This document shows, in pieces, positions 1,981 to 32,474 of a DNA stretch of 64,000 nucleotides; within the stretch, counting starts at the first letter, position 1; every line of letters starts with the position of its first letter. The notes below the pieces were generated by a model that saw nothing but the letters and a program-made list of their open reading frames with translations, searched no databases and was not told the DNA's origin. The stretch is from Gemmatimonadales bacterium. Lineage in GTDB: Bacteria; Gemmatimonadota; Gemmatimonadetes; Gemmatimonadales; GWC2-71-9. The translations under genes were made by a program, and so were the position numbers. The stretch lies in contig JAHBVU010000017.1 of the NCBI GenBank assembly GCA_019637315.1, positions 1 to 64,000 on the forward strand, written 5' to 3'.

Positions 1981-3495
1981 TCAGGCTCCCGAGCCCCGGT
2001 CGATCAGTTCCGCGCTGCCGTCGCGCCGATCCCGGATCTCGAACCGCTCGGCTGTCAGGAGCTGGCGAATCCGGTCCGCCTCGGCGAAATCCTTGGCCCC
2101 CTTGGCTATCCGGCGCCGTACCGCCCAGCGGGTTGCCCAGCGAAGTCGGCCCTCGATGCCGCTGGGACCCGTCGGCTCCAAGAGGGTCTCGTCGTCATCA
2201 GTGGCCGACGCCGGGATCTCCGCCCGCGCCTGAGCCCGATGGGCAACCGCCAGGACCCGGTCGACGAGATCCCAGGCCTGCCGGGCTGCCGCCGTCGGTG
2301 CCACTCCGTCATCGAGCAGCCGATTGGCTTCGCGCACAAACTCGAAGACACAGCCGACTGCCTCGGGGGCGTTAAGGTCGTCGTCGAGTGCCGCCGTCAG
2401 ACCCGCTTCGAGCGCCCGGCTGGGCTCGGCCCAGGGCGAGTCGGCTCCGCCCTTCCCTTGGCCGGCCCGCTCCAGGCGATCGGCAAACTCACCGAGACGC
2501 CGAGCGCCTTCCCGCGCCGCCGCCAGCGCATCATCAGTCAGGTCGAGCTGCTGGCGATAGTGGGTCTGATAGATGAGGAGACGGATGGCTGCCGCTTCGA
2601 CCCCGTCTTCGCGCAGATCTCGGGGCGTCGTAATGTTGCCGAACCGCTTCGACATCTTGGCGCCACGAACGTTGAGAAACTCACCGTGGAGCCAGTACCG
2701 GGCAAACAGATCCTCGCCGGTATAGGCGCAGCTCTGGGCAATTTCATCCTCGTGGTGAGGAAAGATCAGGTCGACTCCGCCGGTATGAATGTCGAGCACC
2801 TGTTCGCCGTAGCGGTGGCTCACCAGCTCGAGCGCCATGGCCGAACACTCGAGGTGCCACCCGGGGCGGCCGCGACCAAACGGCGCATCCCAGGCGGCGC
2901 CGACCTTCTCGTCCTCCGGCTTGGCCGCCTTCCAGAGCACGAAGTCCTGGGCGTTGTCCTTGGTGTACTCGTCGGAGGTAATCCGACCGCTCGCCCCGGT
3001 CTTCAACTCGCGGCGGTCGAGCTGCGACAGCCGACCGTATGCCGGAAAGCGGTCGATCCCGAAATAGACCGACCCATCCTCCCCTCGATAGGCCGTCCCG
3101 TTGCGCAGCAGACCGGACACCAGCCGGATCATCGACGGCACGAAGGCCGTCGCGCGCGGGTAGGCATGGGCCGGAACGATGCGCAGGTAGTCCCGGTCCT
3201 CATAAAAGGCCGTCACATAGGGGGCGACCAGTTGATCGATGCCCACCCCCTGTTCGCCGGCCACTCGGATGATCTTGTCGTCCACATCGGTGAGATTCAT
3301 GATGTGAAAGACCTGGTACCCGCTGGCCTCGAGCCAGCGCCTGAGCAGGTCGACGAACAGAAAGGTCCGGAAGTTCCCGATGTGAGCGTAGTTATAGACG
3401 GTAGGCCCGCAGGAATAGAGCGTGACCCGAGGTGGCGCCCCTGGCACGAACGGCTCGATTCGACGAGTCAACGTATTGAAAAGTGACAGCCCCAC
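1981..3495 (-). CDS. cysS: Cysteinyl-tRNA synthetase
   Basis: Class I aminoacyl-tRNA synthetase that charges tRNA-Cys. 504 residues, the usual length being about 460-500. Near the N-terminus YSCGPTVYNYAHIGNFRT holds the zinc-binding Cys and the HIGH-type signature (HIGN); KMSKRFGN is the KMSKS loop; the C-terminal domain ends in a DRRDGSAELIDR stretch. The start is GTG at 3495, chosen because CGGAGGA lies at good spacing upstream. It lies upstream of the tRNA-tuf promoter in the same orientation but is probably a separate unit. Confidence 0.97.
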   Translation of the reverse strand: MGLSLFNTLTRRIEPFVPGAPPRVTLYSCGPTVYNYAHIGNFRTFLFVDLLRRWLEASGYQVFHIMNLTDVDDKIIRVAGEQGVGIDQLVAPYVTAFYEDRDYLRIVPAHAYPRATAFVPSMIRLVSGLLRNGTAYRGEDGSVYFGIDRFPAYGRLSQLDRRELKTGASGRITSDEYTKDNAQDFVLWKAAKPEDEKVGAAWDAPFGRGRPGWHLECSAMALELVSHRYGEQVLDIHTGGVDLIFPHHEDEIAQSCAYTGEDLFARYWLHGEFLNVRGAKMSKRFGNITTPRDLREDGVEAAAIRLLIYQTHYRQQLDLTDDALAAAREGARRLGEFADRLERAGQGKGGADSPWAEPSRALEAGLTAALDDDLNAPEAVGCVFEFVREANRLLDDGVAPTAAARQAWDLVDRVLAVAHRAQARAEIPASATDDDETLLEPTGPSGIEGRLRWATRWAVRRRIAKGAKDFAEADRIRQLLTAERFEIRDRRDGSAELIDRGSGA

Positions 3496-3594
3496 GTCTG
3501 TTCCTCCGCCTTGGCCCGAATCCCAGCCGCAACGCGAGGCGGGAAGCTAGCAATCCATGCCGAAGAGGAACAGGCCGCCGCTGCCGAGGCGGGC

Positions 3595-4509
3595 TTACCC
3601 CTCGCCGAGCGGGGCGGCGTGACTCGGCGGCGGGTTTCCCGGAGGGGGTGGCGGCTGCATCAGGATGGTCCGCTGCGCGGCCGGAATCTGAATGCCCTCG
3701 GCGTCCAGCCGCAGTTTGAGACGGCGCGAGAACTCGCGGAAGGCCGGCCCCTGCTGCCCCGGAATCGTTCGAATCAGCGTGCGAATCACGACGCCATTGT
3801 CGCCAAAACGATCGATGCCCACCACCTCCGAACCGCCATCAAAGCGGGCCTTCCAAGCCGGATCAACCTGAAACTTGACCAGCTCGTCCCGGACCACCGC
3901 CAAGGCGTGATCGACGTCGGTGCCATAGCTGACCGGGACGTCGACCACGGCTCGTGACCAGCCTCGGCTGGTGTTGACGACCCAGGGAATCGAACCATTC
4001 GGAATGATATGGAGGGCTCCGTGCAAATCTCGGATCCGAACGGCCCGCAGCGAGACCTGCTCGACGGTGCCGCTGTGCTCGCCGATGCGCACTCCGTCGC
4101 CGACGACGAACTGATTCTCGAGCAGGATGAAGAAGCCGGAGATCAGATCCTTGACGAGGCTCTGCGCACCGAACGACACCGCAAGGCTGAGAATCCCGAC
4201 GCCCGCCAGGAGGGGTCGGATATCGATAAAGAGGTTGAGGCTCGACAAGAAGACGGCCAGGATGATGACCGCTCGCCCGACACTGCGGACCAGCTGGGCA
4301 ATGGTCTGCCCGCGCTTCTCCCCGGCTGACAGCACGGTTGGGTCGCCATCGTCGGCCGCGAGCTCGATCCGACGGGCCACCAGGCGCACCAGGCCGGAGC
4401 CGGCCCAGCCGAGCAGCAGCAGCACCGCGAGTTGCAGGACCTTGCGGACCATATGGCCCCGCTCAGTCCCGAGCAGATCGGCAAGCCAGTCAATTGCAGT
4501 AAGGTCCAT
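3595..4509 (-). CDS. MscS-family mechanosensitive ion channel
   Basis: Small-conductance mechanosensitive channel that releases osmolytes on hypo-osmotic shock, in the inner membrane. About 304 residues. Hydrophobic segments lie near residues 20-45 and 75-110. The pore-lining region with GVGILSLAVSFGAQSLVKDLISGFF is diagnostic of the MscS pore helix and is followed by the beta domain (FVVGDGVRIGEHSGTVEQVSLRAVRIR) and the IPNGS motif. The C-terminus is proline-rich. I use the ATG at 4509; an upstream in-frame TTG at 4518 is possible, and neither has a clear Shine-Dalgarno. It follows the universal stress protein gene in the same direction, but a terminator lies between them. Confidence 0.9.
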   Translation of the reverse strand: MDLTAIDWLADLLGTERGHMVRKVLQLAVLLLLGWAGSGLVRLVARRIELAADDGDPTVLSAGEKRGQTIAQLVRSVGRAVIILAVFLSSLNLFIDIRPLLAGVGILSLAVSFGAQSLVKDLISGFFILLENQFVVGDGVRIGEHSGTVEQVSLRAVRIRDLHGALHIIPNGSIPWVVNTSRGWSRAVVDVPVSYGTDVDHALAVVRDELVKFQVDPAWKARFDGGSEVVGIDRFGDNGVVIRTLIRTIPGQQGPAFREFSRRLKLRLDAEGIQIPAAQRTILMQPPPPPGNPPPSHAAPLGEG

Positions 4510-21899: not shown

Positions 21900-23650
21900 G
21901 CGGGCCCCGGTACGGCTCGCTTCGCCTTCGGTTCATCGTGGCGATGGTGGCGATGCTCCTCCTGGTCGTTGCGGCGTTCGGCATCATCGCCCACCAGGTG
22001 GTGCGTCGCAGCGCCAAGGAAGCTGCGGTCGCACGCCTGCAGTCGGTAGCCCGGCAGTTCGTCACCATGGCCACCCCCGGGTTCCTCGATGCGCGCAGCA
22101 GACTCACCGCCGCCGCAACGGATCCCCTGCTGCAGACGGCGCTCCGAACCGGCGAGAGGTCCGAGGGGCTCGAGGGAACGTTGCGTGCCCTGGCACCGGC
22201 AAACAATCCGCTCAATACCGTCAGCCTGGGGAGCCCGGCCGGCGACATCGTGGCGGCTGCGGGTGACCTCGCACCGATGCCGCCGTACCGGCGAGCGGAC
22301 ACGGCGACCGTTGGCCCGCTTTTCGTGGCGCACGACACTGTCTTCCTCGAGGTCAGCGTGCCGGTTCGAACCGGCGACACGACCGTCGGTCACCTGGTCC
22401 AAACGACGCGTCTTGTGGCCGCCGCGACGGCCATCGCGCAACTGACCAACATGATCGGGCCCGAGGCGGTCCTGTTGCTCGGAAATCAGGACGGGTCGGT
22501 CTGGACCGACTTGCGGCGCGTCGTACAGCGGCCACCCCCCGCAAGCGAGGGTCGGGAGTATGATCGGGAGGGACGGCTCCGGGTCGCGGGGAGTCAGCCA
22601 TTTGCCGGGCTGCCGCTGGCGGTGGCGATCGAGATGCCCGCCGATCAGGCCCTGACGCCGGCACGGTCGCTGGCGCAGGGGTTTCTCGGCATCGGCCTCC
22701 TCGTCACGGGGTTGGGTGCTGCCCTCGCCTGGTGGGTTGCCCGCACCATCACCGAGCCGCTCGGTTCGCTGACCCGGGCCGCCCAGGCAATTGCCGGGGG
22801 CGGCAGCCTTACGCCACCCCCGATGCCGGTCGCACGGCGCGACGAGATCGGGACCCTGGCGCGCGCCTTCACCGCGATGACGGACCAGGTGCGCACCGGC
22901 GTCGAAACCCTCGAAAGTCAGGTCAGCACCCGTACCGCGCAGCTCTCCGACGCGCTGGCCCAGCTGGAAGCGGCACAGAAGGACTTGGTTCGCAAAGAGC
23001 GACTCGCAACGCTGGGGCAGCTGTCCAGCAGCGTCGGGCACGAATTGCGCAACCCGCTCGGCGTGATGACCAATGCCGTCTACTACCTCGAGGCAACCCA
23101 GCGCGACGCGACGCCCAAGGTGCGTGAGTACCTCGGCATCATCCGAAACCAGATCCGGATCTCGGAGAAGATTGTCGCAGACCTGCTCGACTACGCTCGG
23201 GTCAATCCGCCCCAGCGAAGCGCGGTCCCCGTGGACGCCTTCATCGACGACGCCCTGACCCGCGTCTCGATTCCGGCCTCCGTGACCGTCGTGAAGGGGA
23301 TCGACGGGGCCGCGACCATGCTGGTCGACTCCGTGCAGATCGGCCAGGTCGTCATCAATCTCTTCAGCAATGCGGTCCAGGCCATGGAGCCAAACGGTGG
23401 CACGCTGACGATCCGCGCTCGGGTCGACGGAGGCTGCGTAGTCATCGAGGTCGCTGACACCGGCCCGGGCATCAGCGACGAGAATCGCGAACACATCTTC
23501 GAACCGTTGTTCACCACCAAGGCCCGGGGTATCGGGCTAGGCCTCGCCGTCTCGCGCGGCCTGGCCCGCGCCAATGGCGGCGATCTCGCCTTCGAGACAG
23601 CGCTCGGACGCGGGACGACGTTTACTCTGACCGTACCGAGCGCCGGATGA
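21896..23650 (+). CDS. Membrane sensor histidine kinase with periplasmic sensor and HAMP
   Basis: 584 residues. TM1 about 11-33, a periplasmic sensor region of about 225 residues (Cache-like length), TM2 about 262-281 and HAMP about 282-335. A coiled linker with [20 protein letters not shown] leads to the H-box [13 protein letters not shown] with H382, then N-box [13 protein letters not shown]1 [10 protein letters not shown]-box PLFTTKA and G2 [11 protein letters not shown]. It anchors the otherwise cytosolic relay operon to the membrane. Overlaps both neighbours by four bases. Confidence 0.94.
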
Positions 23651-24372
23651 CTGCCAAACGGATCCTCGTCGTCGACGACGACCGCGGAATGGTCGAGACG
23701 CTTTGCGATATCCTCGAAATTAACGGCTGGGCGACCTCCCGCGCCTTCGATGGTGAGGATGCCGTCCGCCTGGCACGCGAGCAATCCGTCGACGTCGTCC
23801 TGATGGACATCCGGATGCCCCGCCTGAACGGCGTCAAAGCCCTCCAGGCAATCAAGCAAGACCGGCCGGGTACCCGGATCATCCTGATGACGGCCTTTGC
23901 TGCGCAGGAACTGATCGCCGAGGCCGAGGGGGCCGGGGTGCTGCAGATTCTGCGCAAACCAGTCGAGCTGTCGGCGCTGTTGGCGTTCCTCGAGAGGGCA
24001 CGGCACGAGATCCGCTCCGTTCTGGTCGTCGACGACGAGCCAGAGTTCCTCGACACCCTGTGCGAGCTGCTCACCACCAAGGGCCTCACGCCAGTCAAGG
24101 CGCGCACCGTGGACGAAGCCGTGGCCCGGATGACGTCCGACCGGCCAACCGCCGTCCTGCTCGACCTGCGGCTCAACCACGTCGATCCGAAGGCCGGCAT
24201 CCTGGCGATCCGCGAGGTCGACCCGTCCGTCCTGCTCATCCTCTACAGCGGCCACAAGGATCACCTGGACCGGACCATGGAGGATGCGCCCGATGGCCTG
24301 ATCGACGCCGCGTTCACCAAACCGCTACCCATCGACCGCCTGCTGGAAGTGCTCCATGTCGACCGGCACTGA
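23647..24372 (+). CDS. Double-receiver response regulator
   Basis: 241 residues made of two complete receiver domains and no output domain. REC1 (about 4-118) has DDD at 10-12, acceptor D54 ([12 protein letters not shown]), MTAFA and LRKPVE; REC2 (about 122-238) has VVDDEPEF, acceptor Asp in [17 protein letters not shown] and FTKPLP. Such stand-alone receivers usually act as phosphate relays or sinks. It lies between a membrane kinase and a hybrid kinase and overlaps the latter by 17 bases. Confidence 0.93.
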
Positions 24373-26260
24373 TCACGTTCCCGTCCTGGTCGTTGACGAC
24401 GACGAGAACCTGACCCGGACGCTGGAAGACATTCTTCCACTCCACGGGTTCGCACCGCTCACGGCGCAAAGCGGCAGCCAGGCGCTGACCCTGGCCCAGG
24501 AGTCGGCGCAGACCCCGCCGGTCGCGGTAGTGGACCTCCGCTTGCCCGACATGGACGGGATCGATCTGGCCGTCCGCCTGCACGCCTATTCCGGGGAGAT
24601 GCAGGTCGTCATCCTGACCGGCAACGGAACCGTGGAAAGCGCGATTCGTGCGCTGCGCGAGGAGGAATGCGACTACCTGCTCAAGCCGGTGGACCCCGAC
24701 CAGCTCGTGCGTACCTTGCGTACCGCAGAAGGACGGTGGCGGCTCCGCCAGGCGCGCGACGAGCTCCATCGGACCCAGCGTCTGCTGAGCGCCGTATTCG
24801 ACGCCTCACCGCTCCCGATCGCTGTCCTGAATGACGATCTGACGGTACGGCTCTGGAATGGCGCCGCAGAACAGGTCTTCGGGGTCCCGGCAGCCCAGAT
24901 CATCGGTCAGTCCATGCCCCAGCTCGACCATACGGCGGAGGGCCCATCGCATCGGCTGCTGAGCGGTGTGCTGCAGGGGCAGCGACTGACCAGCGTCGAC
25001 CTGCAGTATCGCCGCCCGGACAACGTGGTCGTCGAGCTGCGCCTGAGCGCGGCACGGCTGGCCGATCACCCCGACATGCCGGGGGCGTTGGTCGCGATGT
25101 ACGAAGACACCACGGTGCGACGACGCCTGGAGACACAGCTTCATGATGCCCAGCGACTCGACGCCTTGGGCCGCCTGGCGGGGGGTGTCGCCCATGATTT
25201 CAACAACCTGCTCGCCGTGATCCTGGCAGAGGCGGAGACCGGACTTCACGAACCTGGGCTCGATCCGGTGATACGGTCCACGTTCGAGAGCATCGCGGCC
25301 ACGGCGAACCGAGGTGCGGCGCTGACCCGCCAGCTGCTGTCGTTTGCGCGGCGGCAACCCTCCGAGCCAACCACGCTGGACCTGAACGGAATCGTAAGAG
25401 ATCTCGAGCGCACGCTTGGACGCCTATCGGGCAGCACGGTCGAGTGCCGCACCATCCTGGAGCCCGACCTCTGGCCGACGGTCGCCGACCGCGGCCAGCT
25501 CGAGCAGGTCCTCACCAACCTGGTCGTCAATGCGCGCGATGCGATGCCGGAAGGCGGTGTCGTTACCATCGCCACCGGTAATGTTCCAGACGGCCGGCCG
25601 GATGCCGCGGCGGCCCTGGCAACCGGCGATTGGGTCCGGCTCTCAGTGACCGATACCGGCACGGGCATCCCGGACGAAGTGCGCGCCCGGATCTTCGAGC
25701 CGTTCTTCACCACCAAGCCGCGCGGCACCGGAACCGGACTCGGGCTCGCCACGTGCCACGGAATCATCGAGCGGTTCCAGGGTCTGATCACGGTCGACTC
25801 CACCATGGGCCAGGGCTCCACCTTCCACGTCTACCTGCCGCGTGTGCACCAAGCTGATGCACCGCACGACGTCGATCCGGTCCGGACCGAGGCTCGAGGA
25901 ACCGAGACCATCCTGCTGGTCGAGGACCAGCCCCGGCTCCGCGCGGTCGGCAACGCGATGCTTACGGCCAGCGGCTACGAGGTGGTGGCGGCCGCCACTA
26001 CCGCCGAAGCGATCCAGCTCGCCGACGCGATGCAGCGCCCGCCGGATCTGGTCATTGCAGACCTCAACCTGCCCGATGGTAACGGCCGAGACCTCCTGGT
26101 CCAGCTCCGGCGCCGCTTCCCGACGATCCGTACCCTGCTGACGTCCGGGGCAGCCGACCTCAGCGAGGACGAGATCGGCGAGCACCCCTTCCTGCTCAAA
26201 CCGTTCTCGCTGGAGCAGTTCACTCGTACGGTGCGTGACATCTTCGACAAGCCTGCGTAG
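24356..26260 (+). CDS. Hybrid histidine kinase, REC-PAS-HisKA-HATPase-REC
   Basis: 634 residues. N-terminal receiver (acceptor D60 in VVDLRLPDMDG, LTGNG, LLKPVD), PAS domain about 140-255 (LSAVFDASPLPIAVLNDDLTV), H-box LAGGVAHDFNNLLAVI, N-box NLVVNARDAMPEGG, G1 DTGTGIPDE, F-box PFFTTKP, G2 GTGTGLGLA, and C-terminal receiver (acceptor in VIADLNLPDGNG, LTSGA, LLKPFS). This is the NtrB-like 'AHDFNN' hybrid class. Last gene of the six-gene relay operon; a terminator follows 12 bp later. Confidence 0.94.
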   Translation: MSTGTDHVPVLVVDDDENLTRTLEDILPLHGFAPLTAQSGSQALTLAQESAQTPPVAVVDLRLPDMDGIDLAVRLHAYSGEMQVVILTGNGTVESAIRALREEECDYLLKPVDPDQLVRTLRTAEGRWRLRQARDELHRTQRLLSAVFDASPLPIAVLNDDLTVRLWNGAAEQVFGVPAAQIIGQSMPQLDHTAEGPSHRLLSGVLQGQRLTSVDLQYRRPDNVVVELRLSAARLADHPDMPGALVAMYEDTTVRRRLETQLHDAQRLDALGRLAGGVAHDFNNLLAVILAEAETGLHEPGLDPVIRSTFESIAATANRGAALTRQLLSFARRQPSEPTTLDLNGIVRDLERTLGRLSGSTVECRTILEPDLWPTVADRGQLEQVLTNLVVNARDAMPEGGVVTIATGNVPDGRPDAAAALATGDWVRLSVTDTGTGIPDEVRARIFEPFFTTKPRGTGTGLGLATCHGIIERFQGLITVDSTMGQGSTFHVYLPRVHQADAPHDVDPVRTEARGTETILLVEDQPRLRAVGNAMLTASGYEVVAAATTAEAIQLADAMQRPPDLVIADLNLPDGNGRDLLVQLRRRFPTIRTLLTSGAADLSEDEIGEHPFLLKPFSLEQFTRTVRDIFDKPA

Positions 26261-26329: not shown

Positions 26330-27403
26330 TCAGCGCGCGCGACGTTCCAGGTAGTTCTCCCGCTCACGCACCAGCGCATTGAGCAACGGCGCCGGATCGA
26401 ATCGGACCGGATCGGTCGCTGGCAGACCGGTCTCGTCGCTGGCGGCCTGGCAGGCCTTCCGCGCGTCCGCTTCATTGAGGTCGTAGGTATTGAGGCAGAT
26501 GCCCACCACCTTGGTCGGGTGTACTGCCGAGCCGAGCATCTCGTAGAGCTCGACGTACCGCGACAGCGGCGGGATCTTGAGCCAGGGAGTCGTCCGGTAC
26601 TCGCCGATGTGCAACCGGGTGGCCTGATGGCAGAGAATCATGGCATCGGGGCAGGACCCGTGCAGCAGACCGAGCGTCACGCCCGAGTAGCCGGGGTGAT
26701 TGATACTGCCCTGGCCCTCGACCAGAACGATATCTGCGTCCTTGGCACCCCGGAGCACGAGATCCTCGGCCGCACCCGCAATGAAGTCGGCGACTACGGC
26801 GTCGACCGCAGTGCCCCATCCCTCGATGAAGATGCCGGTCTGGCCGGTGGCAACGAACCGGGTGCGCAGCCCCCGCGCCTTGAGGCCGTCGACCAGTTGC
26901 AGCTGCGCTGTCATCTTGCCGACATTGCAGTCGGTTCCGACGGTCAGCACGACGAAAGGATCGACCAGCCGAGCCTCGCCGGCTGCGATCGGCAGGTTTG
27001 CCGGCGCCTTCCGGGCGTCGTAGATCGACCGACCCAGCCGCGCGGCCTGCGCCGAGAGATCCGGGTCATCGGACAGGAAGGTGTGGAGGCCGCTGACGAG
27101 ATCGGCACCTGCATCGAGCGACTTGATCAGCCAGCCCTTCCACTCATCCGGCAACCGCCCGCCCGCCGGGGCAATCCCGATCATCACCGCCGTCGGCTTG
27201 AAGGCCAGGCCCTCTTCGATCGAGGCGACGATCGGCGTGGCACCACCGAACCCCAACACATCCTGAACGGTTTTCCCCGCAGTCCGCCGATCCAGCACGG
27301 CAACCACCCGAGAGGGGTGATACCGGATCACAGAGTTCGCGGTCTTGGATTCGAGGGGGTGGAAGTTGCCGTCAGCAATGATCAGGTAGCGGGGGGTATC
27401 CAT
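26330..27403 (-). CDS. DUF1611 family protein (DgcN-like N-acetyltransferase/P-loop enzyme)
   Basis: 357 residues. The N-terminal Rossmann-like half (PRYLIIADGNFHPLESKTANSV, YHPSRVVAVLDRRTAGKTV) precedes a P-loop domain with VGTDCNVGKMTA (Walker A-like), VEGQGSINHPGYSG and LGLLHGSCPDAMILCHQ. This is the DUF1611 architecture; some members have been described as D-glutamate N-acetyltransferase (DgcN). The usual partner enolase-family epimerase is not beside it. The ATG at 27403 has no Shine-Dalgarno, and a stable leader hairpin lies just upstream, so translation may be controlled. An operator copy lies about 126 bp upstream. Confidence 0.82.
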   Translation of the reverse strand: MDTPRYLIIADGNFHPLESKTANSVIRYHPSRVVAVLDRRTAGKTVQDVLGFGGATPIVASIEEGLAFKPTAVMIGIAPAGGRLPDEWKGWLIKSLDAGADLVSGLHTFLSDDPDLSAQAARLGRSIYDARKAPANLPIAAGEARLVDPFVVLTVGTDCNVGKMTAQLQLVDGLKARGLRTRFVATGQTGIFIEGWGTAVDAVVADFIAGAAEDLVLRGAKDADIVLVEGQGSINHPGYSGVTLGLLHGSCPDAMILCHQATRLHIGEYRTTPWLKIPPLSRYVELYEMLGSAVHPTKVVGICLNTYDLNEADARKACQAASDETGLPATDPVRFDPAPLLNALVRERENYLERRAR

Positions 27404-27565: not shown

Positions 27566-28324
27566 TTACCGGCCATCGTCCTCGAGCACTTCCGGATCGT
27601 CGACGACCGCCTCGCCCCGACCGAGCTTCTTGGCCTCATCGGACCCGCCCTTGAGCAGTCCCATTTTGGCCTTGAGTTCGATCAGCTGCTGGTCGGAGGA
27701 CCCGTGGTACTCGAGCTGCTTGAACTGCTGGGTCAGGTCGTCGCCCTCGAACTCCTGTTGCAGTTCGGCGGCCGCAAGCGCCTTACGTTCGATCGACTCG
27801 ATTTTTTCGGTCATCCGATCGAAGGACTCGAAGGCGCTCTTGTCCGACATGCCGGACATGGTCTGCTGAATCCGCTGCTGCGCCTCGGCACGCTTGGCCC
27901 GGGCCACCAGGATGTTCTTCTTCCGCTTGGCTTCCTCGATCTTGTCGTGAAGCTGGCGAAGCTGGAGCTTCAGGTTTTCGGTATCGGCCCGATGCTTGAC
28001 CCAGGTCTCGTGCAATTGCTGCGCACCCTGCAGGGCTTCGTTGTAGCGCATCAGCGCCTGCTTGGCGAGGTCGTCACGACCCTCTTGAACCGCCAGCATG
28101 GCGCGACGCTCCCAGTCCTCCGCCTGCTTCTTGAGCGCCTCGGCGTCGGCCTGCAGCTTCTTCTCGTCCGCGATGGCACCCGCTGCTTCCTGCTTGGCTT
28201 TGGCCAACTGCGTTTTCATGTCGAGAATCAACTGATTCAACATCTTCTCGGGATTCTCAGCCCGACTGATGAGGTCGTTGATGTTCGACCGCAGCATGGT
28301 CGAAAAACGTTCGAAGATACCCAT
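27566..28324 (-). CDS. pspA: PspA/IM30 family membrane-stress protein
   Basis: Peripheral membrane ESCRT-III-like protein that oligomerises on the inner membrane under envelope stress. 252 residues, almost wholly alpha-helical coiled coil: MGIFERFSTMLRSNINDLISRAENPEKMLNQLI is the amphipathic helix and hairpin start, followed by long heptad helices (KQEAAGAIADEKKLQADAEALKKQ...). The C-terminus is acidic. It is last in a minus-strand run of PspB-like genes and a YbjN-like gene, 8 bp after the latter. No pspF or classical pspC is present here. Confidence 0.95.
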   Translation of the reverse strand: MGIFERFSTMLRSNINDLISRAENPEKMLNQLILDMKTQLAKAKQEAAGAIADEKKLQADAEALKKQAEDWERRAMLAVQEGRDDLAKQALMRYNEALQGAQQLHETWVKHRADTENLKLQLRQLHDKIEEAKRKKNILVARAKRAEAQQRIQQTMSGMSDKSAFESFDRMTEKIESIERKALAAAELQQEFEGDDLTQQFKQLEYHGSSDQQLIELKAKMGLLKGGSDEAKKLGRGEAVVDDPEVLEDDGR

Positions 28325-28331
28325 TCGCGGC

Positions 28332-28727
28332 TTACCTTTCGCGGTACGGCGCCAGAGCGCTCAGATGCGATGACAGGGCCAACGTCAGCGAGTCGAAGCT
28401 CGACTCGAACTCCGAAAAGTCGAGGTGCTCGAGGTCGAGCACATCGGTCAGGACGACGTGATCTCCCTCGATCCCATACGACCCACGCACCAGATCGCTG
28501 GCATTCAGCTCGAGCAACTGCCGGAACAGGCCGGTCCGGCGGTCGGACTCTGCCGGCTCTTCCATGACCCGGAGTCGAAGGATCACGACCGGCGGCGAGT
28601 AGGTCACCACCACCTCCGACCCGTGTTGCGATCGGACCAGCCACAGCCCGGGTTCGACCTCACGCACCTCGACCGAGCCACCTTCCAGCCGGTCGAGAAA
28701 CGTCTGCAGATCCTCCTTCGTAACCAT
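28332..28727 (-). CDS. YbjN/CesT-fold-like small protein
   Basis: 131 residues, ATG with GGAG nine bases upstream. The sequence (TFLDRLEGGSVEVREVEPGLWLVRSQHGSEVVVTYSPPVVILRLRVMEEP ... FRQLLELNASDLVRGSYGIEGDHVVLTDVLDLEHLDFSEFESSFDSL) follows the pattern of YbjN and type III secretion chaperone-like folds: a helix, a beta sheet and a C-terminal helix pair. Such proteins often bind partner proteins. The 8-bp gap to pspA suggests it modulates PspA. Confidence 0.75.
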   Translation of the reverse strand: MVTKEDLQTFLDRLEGGSVEVREVEPGLWLVRSQHGSEVVVTYSPPVVILRLRVMEEPAESDRRTGLFRQLLELNASDLVRGSYGIEGDHVVLTDVLDLEHLDFSEFESSFDSLTLALSSHLSALAPYRER

Positions 28728-28792
28728 GCGCAGAGCTCCTTCGTTTCGGGTCGGGTCTGCAAATCTACTGCCGTTGGCCGGTCAGCCGCTTC

Positions 28793-29185
28793 CTACTCGC
28801 GGCGCTCGCTCCTCTGCGGCAGCAACGCCGCCTGGTCGGCGGTCCGCGCCAGGAGCCGCTCGGTAAAGTCGAGCCGCTCTTCCAATTCGAGGACCCGAGT
28901 TTCCGCCGCTTCGAGATCGGCAACCCGCTGCTCCAGCTCCTCCAGCCGAGCGGCGGCCATCTGCCCGGTGGTAAGCCCTTCGGGGGTCTGAGCCAGCCTG
29001 GCAAGGCCGCGGGTCCGGCGCCACGAGAAGACCAGCAGCGATCCGCCAAAGACGGCTGCAACCATGGCGTCGTCCATCGGCCCGCGGACCGTTTCGGCTA
29101 CAAAGGCGGCCACCATGCCCGTCATCACCACATGAATGGTGAAGTCGATGGCGTCCATCCCGAAGTTCTTGCGAAACCAGGACAT
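28793..29185 (-). CDS. PspB-like small membrane protein A
   Basis: 130 residues. Two hydrophobic segments (IDFTIHVVMTGMVAAFVAET and MVAAVFGGSLLVFSW), then a coiled coil (AARLEELEQRVADLEAAETRVLELEERLDF) ending in the signature ERLDFTERLLARTADQ. It starts one base after gene B stops. The same C-terminal signature is found in the next three genes. The TM-plus-short-coiled-coil layout and the ERxDFxERLLA end recall PspB (RERIxxLExILD), a PspA-pathway membrane protein. The PspB relation is inferred from pattern. Confidence 0.8.
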   Translation of the reverse strand: MSWFRKNFGMDAIDFTIHVVMTGMVAAFVAETVRGPMDDAMVAAVFGGSLLVFSWRRTRGLARLAQTPEGLTTGQMAAARLEELEQRVADLEAAETRVLELEERLDFTERLLARTADQAALLPQRSERRE

Positions 29186-29186
29186 C

Positions 29187-29531
29187 TCAACCCTGATTCC
29201 GGCCGACAGACTGCGACTCGCGACCCTGAGCCAGCAGCCGCTCCGAAAAGTCGACCCGCTCCTCGAGCTCGGCGACGCGATCCTGAACCAGCTCGAGTTC
29301 GGCAACCCGGGCTCGCAGGTGGTCGACTTCAGCAGCAAGCTGCGCATCACCGCTCTTCCCGTCGATCCGACGGGCATAGGCCCTGAGTAACGGCCCGAAC
29401 ACGATGCCCGCAACGATAATGGCAACGACCATGACGCCCGCGATGAAGACTATTTCGGGCGGGCCGTCGTGAAAGCCGGGCGGCAATGGTATCTGGGGAG
29501 GCTCGGGAACCTGGACCACGACCTGTCTCAT
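29187..29531 (-). CDS. PspB-like small membrane protein B
   Basis: 114 residues. A Pro-rich N-terminus, one TM helix (IVFIAGVMVVAIIVAGIVF), the juxtamembrane motif GPLLRAYARRIDG, and a coiled coil ending ELEERVDFSERLLAQG. Its ATG shares one base with the stop of gene C (TGATG), indicating coupling. Paralogous to genes A, C and D. No catalytic motif. Confidence 0.8.
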   Translation of the reverse strand: MRQVVVQVPEPPQIPLPPGFHDGPPEIVFIAGVMVVAIIVAGIVFGPLLRAYARRIDGKSGDAQLAAEVDHLRARVAELELVQDRVAELEERVDFSERLLAQGRESQSVGRNQG

Positions 29532-29788
29532 CAGCGCGCCTCCGGAATCTGCGGGCGGGCCGCCTCGTCACGATTGGCCAGCAACCGCTCCGCGAAATCT
29601 ACCCGCTCCGCCAGCTCCGCCAATTCGTGCCGGACCCGATCGAGTTCTTCCAGGACGGCCGGGTCGGTTTCCGGCGGCGACTGGTCCCCGCGAATCCTTG
29701 CCGCAACGGCCTTCCCGATCGGGCTGTACGCCAGCACGCCGAGCGTACCGCCGCCAAAGATGAGCAGAATTGCCAGTACGCCTTCCAT
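29531..29788 (-). CDS. PspB-like small membrane protein C
   Basis: 85 residues from the ATG at 29788, which has GGGAGGAACG directly upstream; a longer GTG start at 29800 is unlikely. One TM helix (VLAILLIFGGGTLGVLAYS), juxtamembrane SPIGKAVAARIRG, coiled coil ending ELAERVDFAERLLANRDEA. Member of the four-gene tandem family. Confidence 0.8.
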   Translation of the reverse strand: MEGVLAILLIFGGGTLGVLAYSPIGKAVAARIRGDQSPPETDPAVLEELDRVRHELAELAERVDFAERLLANRDEAARPQIPEAR

Positions 29789-29827
29789 CGTTCCTCCCAC
29801 CTTCGTGAACCCTGCGACCTGCGTACT

Positions 29828-30124
29828 TCAGGATCGTCCGCCCTCTGCCGAGGACCGCTGCGCCAGCAATCGCTCGCTAAAGTCGAGGCGTTCCTCGGCC
29901 TCAGTCAGCCGCTGCTGCATCTGATCGACCTGAAGCCGCAGATCATCGAGCTCGTGGAGCAGCTCCGGCTCGGGCGCATTGCCGCCGCGTCCCTGGATCC
30001 GCCGGGCCATGGCCTGTCCTACCGGCCCCTGAAAGACCCTGACCAAGCCCCAAGCCAGAAACCCGGTCGTCAAGATACCGGTGATCATTCCAAAAACCGG
30101 GATGACGATATCCGGGTTGGCCAT
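29828..30124 (-). CDS. PspB-like small membrane protein D
   Basis: 98 residues from the ATG at 30124 (MANPDIVIPVFGMI); an upstream GTG at 30190 would add 22 residues. One TM helix (IVIPVFGMITGILTTGFLAWGLV), juxtamembrane GPVGQAMARRIQG, coiled coil (LHELDDLRLQVDQMQQRLTEAEERLDFSERLLAQR). First of the four tandem genes, 28-95 bp after the peptidase gene depending on start, so it could be read from the peptidase transcript. Confidence 0.8.
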   Translation of the reverse strand: MANPDIVIPVFGMITGILTTGFLAWGLVRVFQGPVGQAMARRIQGRGGNAPEPELLHELDDLRLQVDQMQQRLTEAEERLDFSERLLAQRSSAEGGRS

Positions 30125-30218
30125 CGCTTTCGCAGCCCTCACATCGGGACGATTGTCCTGCTTACGACCCGACGTTGCAGAATGTTTCACGTTGACCGGA
30201 CGAATCCGGCCCCCAGTC

Positions 30219-32474
30219 TCACGGCCGGCTGGGGGGCGGCTCCGACGGCGTCAGTTTCTCGACCAGATACTCGGAAATCATCGTCCGCAGATGCACCGAG
30301 GTGGTGCCGCCGGAGATGGAATGGTTCCGGTTGGGATAGGACATCAGCCGAAACTGCTTATTGGCCGCCACCAGGGCGTCGATCAGCGCCTCAGTGTTCT
30401 GGTAGTGGACGTTGTCGTCGCCGGTGCCGTGAACCAGCAGGAGATTGCCCTTCATCCCGTCGACGTACGACAGCGGCGAGCCCTGATCATACCCGGCCGC
30501 GTTCTCCTGGGGCAGTCCGTTGTATCGCTCAGTGTAGATGGTGTCGTAGTATTTCCAATGGGTAACCGGCGCCACCGATACCGCCGTGGAATACACGTCG
30601 GGAGCCTGAAACAGGCCATTCAGGCTCATGAACCCGCCGTAGCTCCAACCGTAGATTCCCATCCGCGTCGGATCGACCCACGGTTTCCGTGCAAAGGCCC
30701 GCGCCGCGGCCGCCTGGTCCTGCGTCTCGATGACGCCCAACCGACCGTAGATGATCTTGCGCCAGTCCCGGCCGCGGGCTCCGCTGCCCCGATTGTCGAC
30801 GCTCGCGACCACCACACCCCGCTGGGTCAGACTCAGGTGCCAGAGATAGTTGGTGCCACCCCAACTGTCGAGCACGGTTTGTGAACCGGGCCCGCCATAG
30901 ATCGAAAAGAGGACCGGGTAGCGCTGGGTCGAATCGAAGCCCGGCGGTCGCATGACCCAGGCATCCAGTTCGACCCCGCCGCCGATGCTGATCCGCTCGA
31001 AGCTGGCTTGCCCCCGCCTCAAGGCGTCGACCTGCGCGGCAAGCCGGCTGTTGGTCACCACCGTGCGAACGGTCCGATGCTCCGGCAGGCGCACCAGCGC
31101 CATGACGGGCGGCGTGCCGAACTTCGAATAGGTGTGGATGGCCCAGCGCGCATCGGGAGAGAGGTTATAGCCGTGGGTTCCCTGCTGCCCGGCTGGCGAG
31201 ACCCGCTCGAGCTTGCCCTTGCCGTCGAGGCGGGTCCGGTAGAGGTAGCGCTGTGTCGGGTTGTCCGGTGAGGCGATGAAATAGAGCCACCCGCCGCGCT
31301 CATCGATCGCTCGGATCCCGATCACGTCATAGGCTCCAGGCGTGATGGCGCGCACCTGGCGTCCATCGCGCGACACGACGTACGCCTTGGTCCAGCCGTC
31401 CCGCTCGCTGACCCAGGTGAACGACTTGCCGCCATCGAGCCAAACCAAATCATCCACCACTTCGACCCAGGCCGAGTCCTGTTCGGTCAGGATGGTGCGC
31501 ACCGCGCCCGTCCGGGCATCGGCCAGCAGCAGGTCGAGCCGGTTCTGCAACCGGTTGAGCCGCTGCACCACGAGTTCATCGCTCGAGGCGGCCCATTCCA
31601 TCCGGGCCAGATAGATGTTGCGCGGGTCGCCCTCTATGCTGAGCCAGCGGGTTGCTCCCCCGGTTGCCAGCACCACGCCGATCCGGACCGCCGAGTTGTC
31701 CTCGCCCGCCTTGGGGTACTGCACCGGAACCATGGAGGAGTAGAGAGAATCGGTGGTCCGGTACATCAGGAAGTCACGGACCCGATCGGCCTCGAGCTGC
31801 CAGTAGGCAATCCGGGTGCCGTCGGGGCTCCAGCGCCAGCCGTCGTGCAGCGACAGCTCCTCCTCGTAGACCCAGTCGAAGTTGCCGTTGATGACCGTCC
31901 GGGTGCCATCATGGGTCAGCTGGGTAATCGCTCCGGTGGCCAGGTCTTCGACATAGATATTGTTGTTGCGGACGTAGCCGACCCGCTCGCCGGCGGGATC
32001 GAACTTGGCGTACATCAGTGTCGATGGCTCCGCATTGCCACCCAGCTTGCTGAGCCGACCGGAGGCCCGGTCGAGCACCCAGTAGTCTCCGCGGGTGTTG
32101 AGACGCCAGACCTGCTTCGAGTTGGTGTAGACGAGCAGCTTTCGCTGGCCCGGCCCCCAGTGATAGTCGTCGATGGCCAGCGGCGCACTGGCGCCCGGGG
32201 GAATCAGACGCGACGCCGGTATCAGCATGTCGCGAGCGCCGGTCTCCGTATCGTAGCGGACGATGTCACGCCCGCCGGCCGGGCTGGCTTCGAGCGTGGT
32301 GTAGGAAGACCCATCGCCGAGCCACCGGGTCGGGCCGAACCGCTCGGGCTGGAAATCGGCGCTGCCGTAGATCCGCTGCACCGTTACGCGGGAGGGATCG
32401 GCCCGGTCGGCCTGCTGCGCCGAGGTCTGGGTGGGCGCCAGCAGCAGCAACGTCAGGAGCAGTCGTCTATCCAC
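30219..32474 (-). CDS. S9B dipeptidyl peptidase IV-like serine peptidase
   Basis: Secreted or periplasmic prolyl dipeptidase, 751 residues, GTG start with GAGG six bases upstream. Signal peptide MDRRLLLTLLLLAPTQTSAQ. N-terminal beta-propeller (DPPIV_N; GNFDWVYEEELSLHDGWRWSPDG) then the alpha/beta-hydrolase domain: nucleophile in GWSYGG, Asp in GTGDDNVHYQN, His in NRNHSISGG. Likely role in peptide scavenging. The DWVYEEEL segment supplies the Glu pair that binds the substrate N-terminus in DPP4 enzymes. Confidence 0.95.
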   Translation of the reverse strand: MDRRLLLTLLLLAPTQTSAQQADRADPSRVTVQRIYGSADFQPERFGPTRWLGDGSSYTTLEASPAGGRDIVRYDTETGARDMLIPASRLIPPGASAPLAIDDYHWGPGQRKLLVYTNSKQVWRLNTRGDYWVLDRASGRLSKLGGNAEPSTLMYAKFDPAGERVGYVRNNNIYVEDLATGAITQLTHDGTRTVINGNFDWVYEEELSLHDGWRWSPDGTRIAYWQLEADRVRDFLMYRTTDSLYSSMVPVQYPKAGEDNSAVRIGVVLATGGATRWLSIEGDPRNIYLARMEWAASSDELVVQRLNRLQNRLDLLLADARTGAVRTILTEQDSAWVEVVDDLVWLDGGKSFTWVSERDGWTKAYVVSRDGRQVRAITPGAYDVIGIRAIDERGGWLYFIASPDNPTQRYLYRTRLDGKGKLERVSPAGQQGTHGYNLSPDARWAIHTYSKFGTPPVMALVRLPEHRTVRTVVTNSRLAAQVDALRRGQASFERISIGGGVELDAWVMRPPGFDSTQRYPVLFSIYGGPGSQTVLDSWGGTNYLWHLSLTQRGVVVASVDNRGSGARGRDWRKIIYGRLGVIETQDQAAAARAFARKPWVDPTRMGIYGWSYGGFMSLNGLFQAPDVYSTAVSVAPVTHWKYYDTIYTERYNGLPQENAAGYDQGSPLSYVDGMKGNLLLVHGTGDDNVHYQNTEALIDALVAANKQFRLMSYPNRNHSISGGTTSVHLRTMISEYLVEKLTPSEPPPSRP

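Follow-up and report, generated by a model that had tools for sequence, protein, structure and literature searches.

A conserved array of membrane-anchored, PspB-like proteins with a common C-terminal motif precedes pspA in many Gemmatimonadota

The window analysed here, a 64,000-nucleotide stretch of a Gemmatimonadales bacterium (contig JAHBVU010000017.1, positions 1 to 64,000), contains four small paralogous genes, here called A to D, that run into a CesT/Tir chaperone-like gene and a pspA gene. We confirm that this array next to pspA is real and conserved in many Gemmatimonadota, with up to eight different members, and we found no earlier description in the literature of a motif-sharing, membrane-anchored array in front of pspA. 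The motif that the four proteins carry close to their C-terminus also ends membrane proteins encoded elsewhere in the genome, which points to a common module for docking or assembly in the defence against membrane stress.

All six open reading frames (ORFs) point in one direction and are tightly packed (window 27566-30124, minus strand), in the order A (98 aa), B (85), C (114), D (130), CesT-like (131) and pspA (252), so that the single run of four paralogous genes into pspA proposed by an earlier, sequence-only reading of this DNA is confirmed. To follow the array in relatives, pspA was located in 53 of 61 related genomes and 40 pspA-anchored loci were taken, in which upstream array members were counted by hidden Markov model (HMM). 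These loci were picked by pspA and not by the motif; the HMM itself derives from members that they contain, and the counts are lower bounds where arrays run off contig ends. Within the same family (f1) the array is present in 23 of 24 pspA loci, with a median of 4.5 and a maximum of 8 members, and in a sister family (f3) all four pspA loci have one, of 1-5 members (median 3). The tandem arrangement beside pspA thus proves to be conserved across many genera, with a gene order of uvrA-[S9 peptidase]-array-[CesT]-pspA-[DUF1611-type gene], in which the bracketed genes are optional. Since in one clade, where no CesT gene is detected, the array still directly abuts pspA, pspA is its constant neighbour. 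Families f6, f7 and f9 of the class carry one divergent member (..EEQSFLTRLL..) before CesT-pspA, and therefore one such gene may be ancestral and the array a later expansion.

The members share the block E-L-x-E-R-[LVM]-[DE]-F-[ATS]-E-R-L-L, in a family with a mean column identity of only ~22%. The sequence-only reading had the coiled coils ending in ER(L/V)DF(S/T/A)ERLLA; this element is indeed found in all four array proteins, about 8-25 residues before the C-terminus rather than at the exact end. It should be noted that the full invariance of R, F, E and R partly reflects how members were chosen, a motif expression having served for the first selection. When the N-terminal half alone was used as an HMM, the pspA-anchored loci yielded 104 ORFs; 86 of these have the strict motif, 18 a relaxed form and none lacks it, a result that is supportive but not independent, as the training set of this model consisted of the same members. 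Codon choice inside the motif varies freely (89 distinct 24-mers among 95 members), which means that selection acts on the protein. Furthermore, at the DNA level the pattern ER[LVMI]DF[ATS]ER has matches in 41 of the 61 genomes, covering nearly all of f1, several of f3 and none of family f2 of the same order, whereas the reversed pattern matched none of the 61. Given that nearly every same-family genome is matched and the reversed control is not, the motif is not a product of chance.

A tree of 95 members unites A, B, C or D with members of other genera in groups of which several are well supported, the short alignment leaving many deep forks unresolved, and within the same genus the A-B-C-D order recurs, interrupted by additional genes. 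A proline-rich N-terminus is conserved in C-type proteins, and D-type proteins have two transmembrane (TM) segments. The single TM helix earlier ascribed to every array protein therefore applies to A, B and C, while D is modelled with two; likewise, the juxtamembrane (G/S)PxxxAxARRIxG element, which had been assigned to the proteins then numbered D, C and B by coordinate order, is present in our A, B and C and absent from D. AlphaFold2 predicts helices at 26-60 and 63-112 for C (predicted local distance difference test score, pLDDT, 87), and a hairpin at 12-32 and 38-66 followed by a helix at 73-121 for D (pLDDT 84), that is, a TM helix or hairpin and then a long helix. The relative orientation of the helices is uninformative, because the predicted template modelling score is low, as expected for rods. 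By the positive-inside rule the C-terminus is probably cytoplasmic. Differing TM and periplasmic parts, joined to a cytosolic end that stays constant, point to many inputs or locations that share a single output.

The plan of an N-terminal TM helix followed by a predicted cytosolic helix, which the models of C and D follow (D with a TM hairpin), is that of PspB (TIGR02976 / PF06667) of the pspFABC system, likewise small and encoded with pspA. Profile similarity is weak but extends over nearly the whole PspB model: 43 of 91 members match TIGR02976 at E<=1 (best 8.7e-7), against 3 of 45 controls with the cytosolic half reversed (Fisher p=6e-7, a value that is optimistic because the members are related to each other), and in a six-frame search of the 61 genomes with the PspB model many family members rank near the top. 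The reversed-sequence control was used instead of a profile-profile test, PspB sequences on plasmids being nearly all enterobacterial copies of 86-100% identity. No protein in the 61 genomes reached the TIGR02976 cut-off of 51.7 bits, the best scoring 28.3 bits, and for C-type members the scores of the GspM and CcmI models are close to those of PspB. For these two reasons we call the proteins PspB-like and not PspB. Of the PspB-like layout proposed earlier, topology, architecture and above-control profile similarity hold, and formal PspB membership does not; remote homology to PspB is possible. The array also differs from PspB in that ERxDFxERLL replaces PspB's own ending, in that one to eight diverged paralogues stand ahead of pspA, and in that PspC is missing from the genome and PspF from the locus.

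The GspM and CcmI scores, those being models of other TM and coiled-coil proteins, would suit an ordinary expansion, in which small TM-coiled-coil genes were tandem-duplicated near pspA and have generic coiled-coil similarity but no common docking; so would the weak matches to general coiled-coil families. Pfam offers no useful match for A-D. Such an expansion would leave unexplained a motif that is near-invariant despite varied codons and whose reversed control is unmatched in 61 genomes, as well as subtypes that recur and a placement at pspA across many genera. We therefore regard it as very improbable.

The pspA product belongs to PF04012 (166.6 bits, cut-off 33.9) and falls below the cut-off of the proteobacterial PspA model TIGR02977 (143.8 versus 242.95 bits). 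The 131-aa protein encoded next to it, taken to be YbjN-like by the sequence-only reading, is really a CesT_Tir_1 protein (PF22550, 73.1 bits, cut-off 27); YbjN itself (PF10722) reaches 17.4 bits, under its cut-off of 22. A classical pspC had been reported missing, and PspC (PF04024) is indeed not found anywhere in the genome, which is 95% complete. The same claim for pspF stands for the locus; genome-wide there are 9 matches to PspF-like activators, none over the PspF cut-off.

What, then, would the common tail do? We propose that the locus is a Gemmatimonadota variant of the Psp (PspA / bacterial ESCRT-III) operon, whose array would encode membrane-anchored, PspB-like adaptors, each with its own TM/periplasmic part and a cytosolic coiled coil. 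Their common end helix, E-R-phi-D-F-x-E-R-L-L, would dock the same cytosolic partner, most likely PspA, with the CesT/Tir-like protein possibly serving as an assembly chaperone. Through the adaptors PspA would be brought to, or kept at, various membrane sites or states and be enabled to act in membrane repair. PspA is the favoured partner because pspA is the neighbour common to the arrays. We give this docking of one cytosolic partner, preferably PspA, a little less than an even chance, the docking function, the partner and the sensing role all being inferred.

Alternatively, the common helix may serve the motif proteins among themselves, co-oligomerising them into heteromeric membrane scaffolds on or near which PspA acts without binding the motif. 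The motif lies within a continuous predicted coiled-coil helix in the models of C and D, mixed assembly would call for just such identical tails on paralogues encoded together, and E. coli PspB self-associates (PMC3068692). However, the near-fixed F, E and R exceed what a heptad core demands, the coiled-coil trimerisation motif R-h-x-x-h-E does not fit since its second hydrophobic position is A, T or S, and the placement of the array at pspA would go unexplained. All in all, we consider such a mixing zipper unlikely, if worth keeping in mind.

The docking of PspA must also be weighed against motif proteins encoded elsewhere, since the motif is a modular C-terminal element that is not exclusive to pspA loci. 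Among the matches listed, 68 of 136 have pspA within 5 kb, where 0.4 would be expected (24 genomes with pspA placed), 68 being a lower bound because a contig break separates the array from pspA in at least three genomes. The sequence-only reading had suggested a combinatorial membrane sensor array for PspA and held that a family found mostly away from pspA would refute it; with half of the listed matches elsewhere, this objection is neither borne out nor dismissed. A strict-motif scan of 84,980 species gave 141 related loci, of which the best 80 are all Gemmatimonadota, so that equivalents in other phyla are possible; pspA lies in the retrieved stretch for 41 of these 80.

Away from pspA, the motif ends TM2-domain proteins (PF05154, 3e-19 and 4e-19), zinc-ribbon proteins with TM segments (ribbon matches just under cut-off) and single-TM coiled-coil proteins. 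TM2-domain proteins with this end were seen at L206 4061-4516, L215 3596-4036, L203 3284-3946 and L144 2922-3359, and an N-terminal zinc ribbon with TM segments and the same end at L145 6599-7084, L122 6656-7144 and L127 3759-4388. Away from pspA there are also small clusters of two or three genes in tandem that carry the motif or a near-motif (L216 3742-5079, L247 748-1797, L260 1128-2145), in the same and other Gemmatimonadota families. The window's own genome holds further members at L201, L202, L203 (TM2), L204 (degenerate) and L205; the last (3082-3846, contig C32) encodes 254 aa with no Pfam match and no obvious strong TM segment, and ends in LAERLDFAERMLAQQ.

Four observations count against PspB-like adaptors that dock PspA: the other half of the listed strict-motif matches end other proteins away from pspA; none of the 12 pspA loci of f2 has an array, pspA being kept and the strict motif not found there; genome G027 has four motif proteins elsewhere and no array at pspA; and GspM and CcmI rival PspB as models for C-type members. 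The motif on TM2, zinc-ribbon and hairpin proteins off pspA, together with an f2 that has pspA and lacks the strict motif, would suit a different cytosolic partner, such as a general membrane-protein adaptor or quality-control factor, with linkage to pspA reflecting shared envelope-stress regulation. Yet the enrichment at pspA is more than 100-fold and no alternative partner gene stands out, which makes this explanation improbable in our judgement. The same tail is also borne by membrane proteins whose genes lie elsewhere, TM2 and zinc-ribbon proteins among them. A bolder version of the docking of PspA, in which the tail common to PspB-like arrays, TM2, zinc-ribbon and hairpin proteins is a class-wide docking code to PspA and the array a set of interchangeable receptors, is conceivable, and we hold it to be somewhat doubtful.

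Table 1. Features of the array and of the adjoining genes, in window coordinates
Feature	Position	Strand	Description	Evidence
Gene A	29828..30124	-	single TM, juxtamembrane GPVGQAMARRIQG, coiled coil, EERLDFSERLLA; first gene of the array	ORF and alignment; family HMM 3.6e-23
Gene B	29531..29788	-	single TM (MEGVLAILLIFGGGTLGVLAY), SPIGKAVAARIRG, coiled coil, AERVDFAERLLA	family HMM 1.1e-24
Gene C	29187..29531	-	proline-rich N-terminus, single TM, GPLLRAYARRIDG, coiled coil, EERVDFSERLLA	AlphaFold2 model; family HMM 8.2e-27
Gene D	28793..29185	-	two-TM hairpin, coiled coil, EERLDFTERLLA	AlphaFold2 model; family HMM 8.1e-16
Motif ER[LV]DF[ST]ER in A	29871..29893	-		sequence
Motif in B	29586..29608	-		sequence
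Motif in C	29239..29261	-		DNA pattern match
Motif in D	28857..28879	-		DNA pattern match
CesT/Tir chaperone-like gene	28332..28727	-	single copy in this genome	PF22550 2.7e-20, over cut-off
pspA (PspA/IM30 family)	27566..28324	-	single copy in this genome	PF04012 8.3e-49

For gene A, the ATG at 30124 is a more likely start than the alternative GTG at 30190. A GGGAGG Shine-Dalgarno sequence precedes the ATG of B at 29788, the stop of B and the start of C overlap in TGATG, and the CesT-like gene stops 7 bases ahead of pspA. Promoter and terminator scans gave no signal above chance inside the array, and Rfam no family at the locus. Directly upstream of the array lies an S9/DPP-IV-like peptidase gene (window 30219-32474, minus strand), which is found at this side in only some relatives; where it is absent, uvrA takes the upstream position. 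On the other side of pspA, past a DUF1611-type gene (26330-27403, minus strand), the plus strand encodes a double receiver-domain protein and then a hybrid histidine kinase flanked at either end by receiver domains (window 23647-26260); the names of these three genes were assigned by eye from the translations.

In E. coli, PspB and PspC connect PspA to the membrane, PspB self-associates, and the PspC zipper has a role in PspA binding (PMC3068692). In its available part, Ravi et al. 2024 (PMC11237479) reports PspB duplicates in one operon and PspC-PspB fusions, as well as CesT/Tir-PspA dyads, which makes CesT/Tir an already described type of PspA partner. The dyad operons resemble the present locus in the CesT/Tir-like gene adjoining pspA; the larger ones, as far as the same part covers them, add band-7/flotillin, AAA+, spermine-synthase or ATP-grasp genes and no TM-coiled-coil array. 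Gemmatimonadota go unmentioned in the available parts of PMC11237479 and PMC9239133, an unremarked listing in supplementary tables being possible, and a literature search on Gemmatimonadota with PspA or PspB found no relevant paper. PspC, LiaI/LiaF, PspM and the band-7/SPFH proteins of B. subtilis are likewise membrane proteins thought to tie PspA to the membrane, but they belong to other folds and families, and no short C-terminal motif common to many architectures is described for them in the texts consulted.

Outside the model phyla, little is known of how PspA is targeted to stressed membrane in bacteria that lack PspB and PspC. Here, a single phylum has many different membrane anchors that carry the same short motif, and half of these anchors are encoded next to pspA. 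They provide a compact, testable case, in which a single motif and a single predicted partner go with natural variants that carry zero to eight anchors. The motif is also a handle on several scattered membrane proteins lacking an assigned function. If the class-wide code were true, diverse membrane sites would be tied to one cytosolic ESCRT-III-type machine, PspA.
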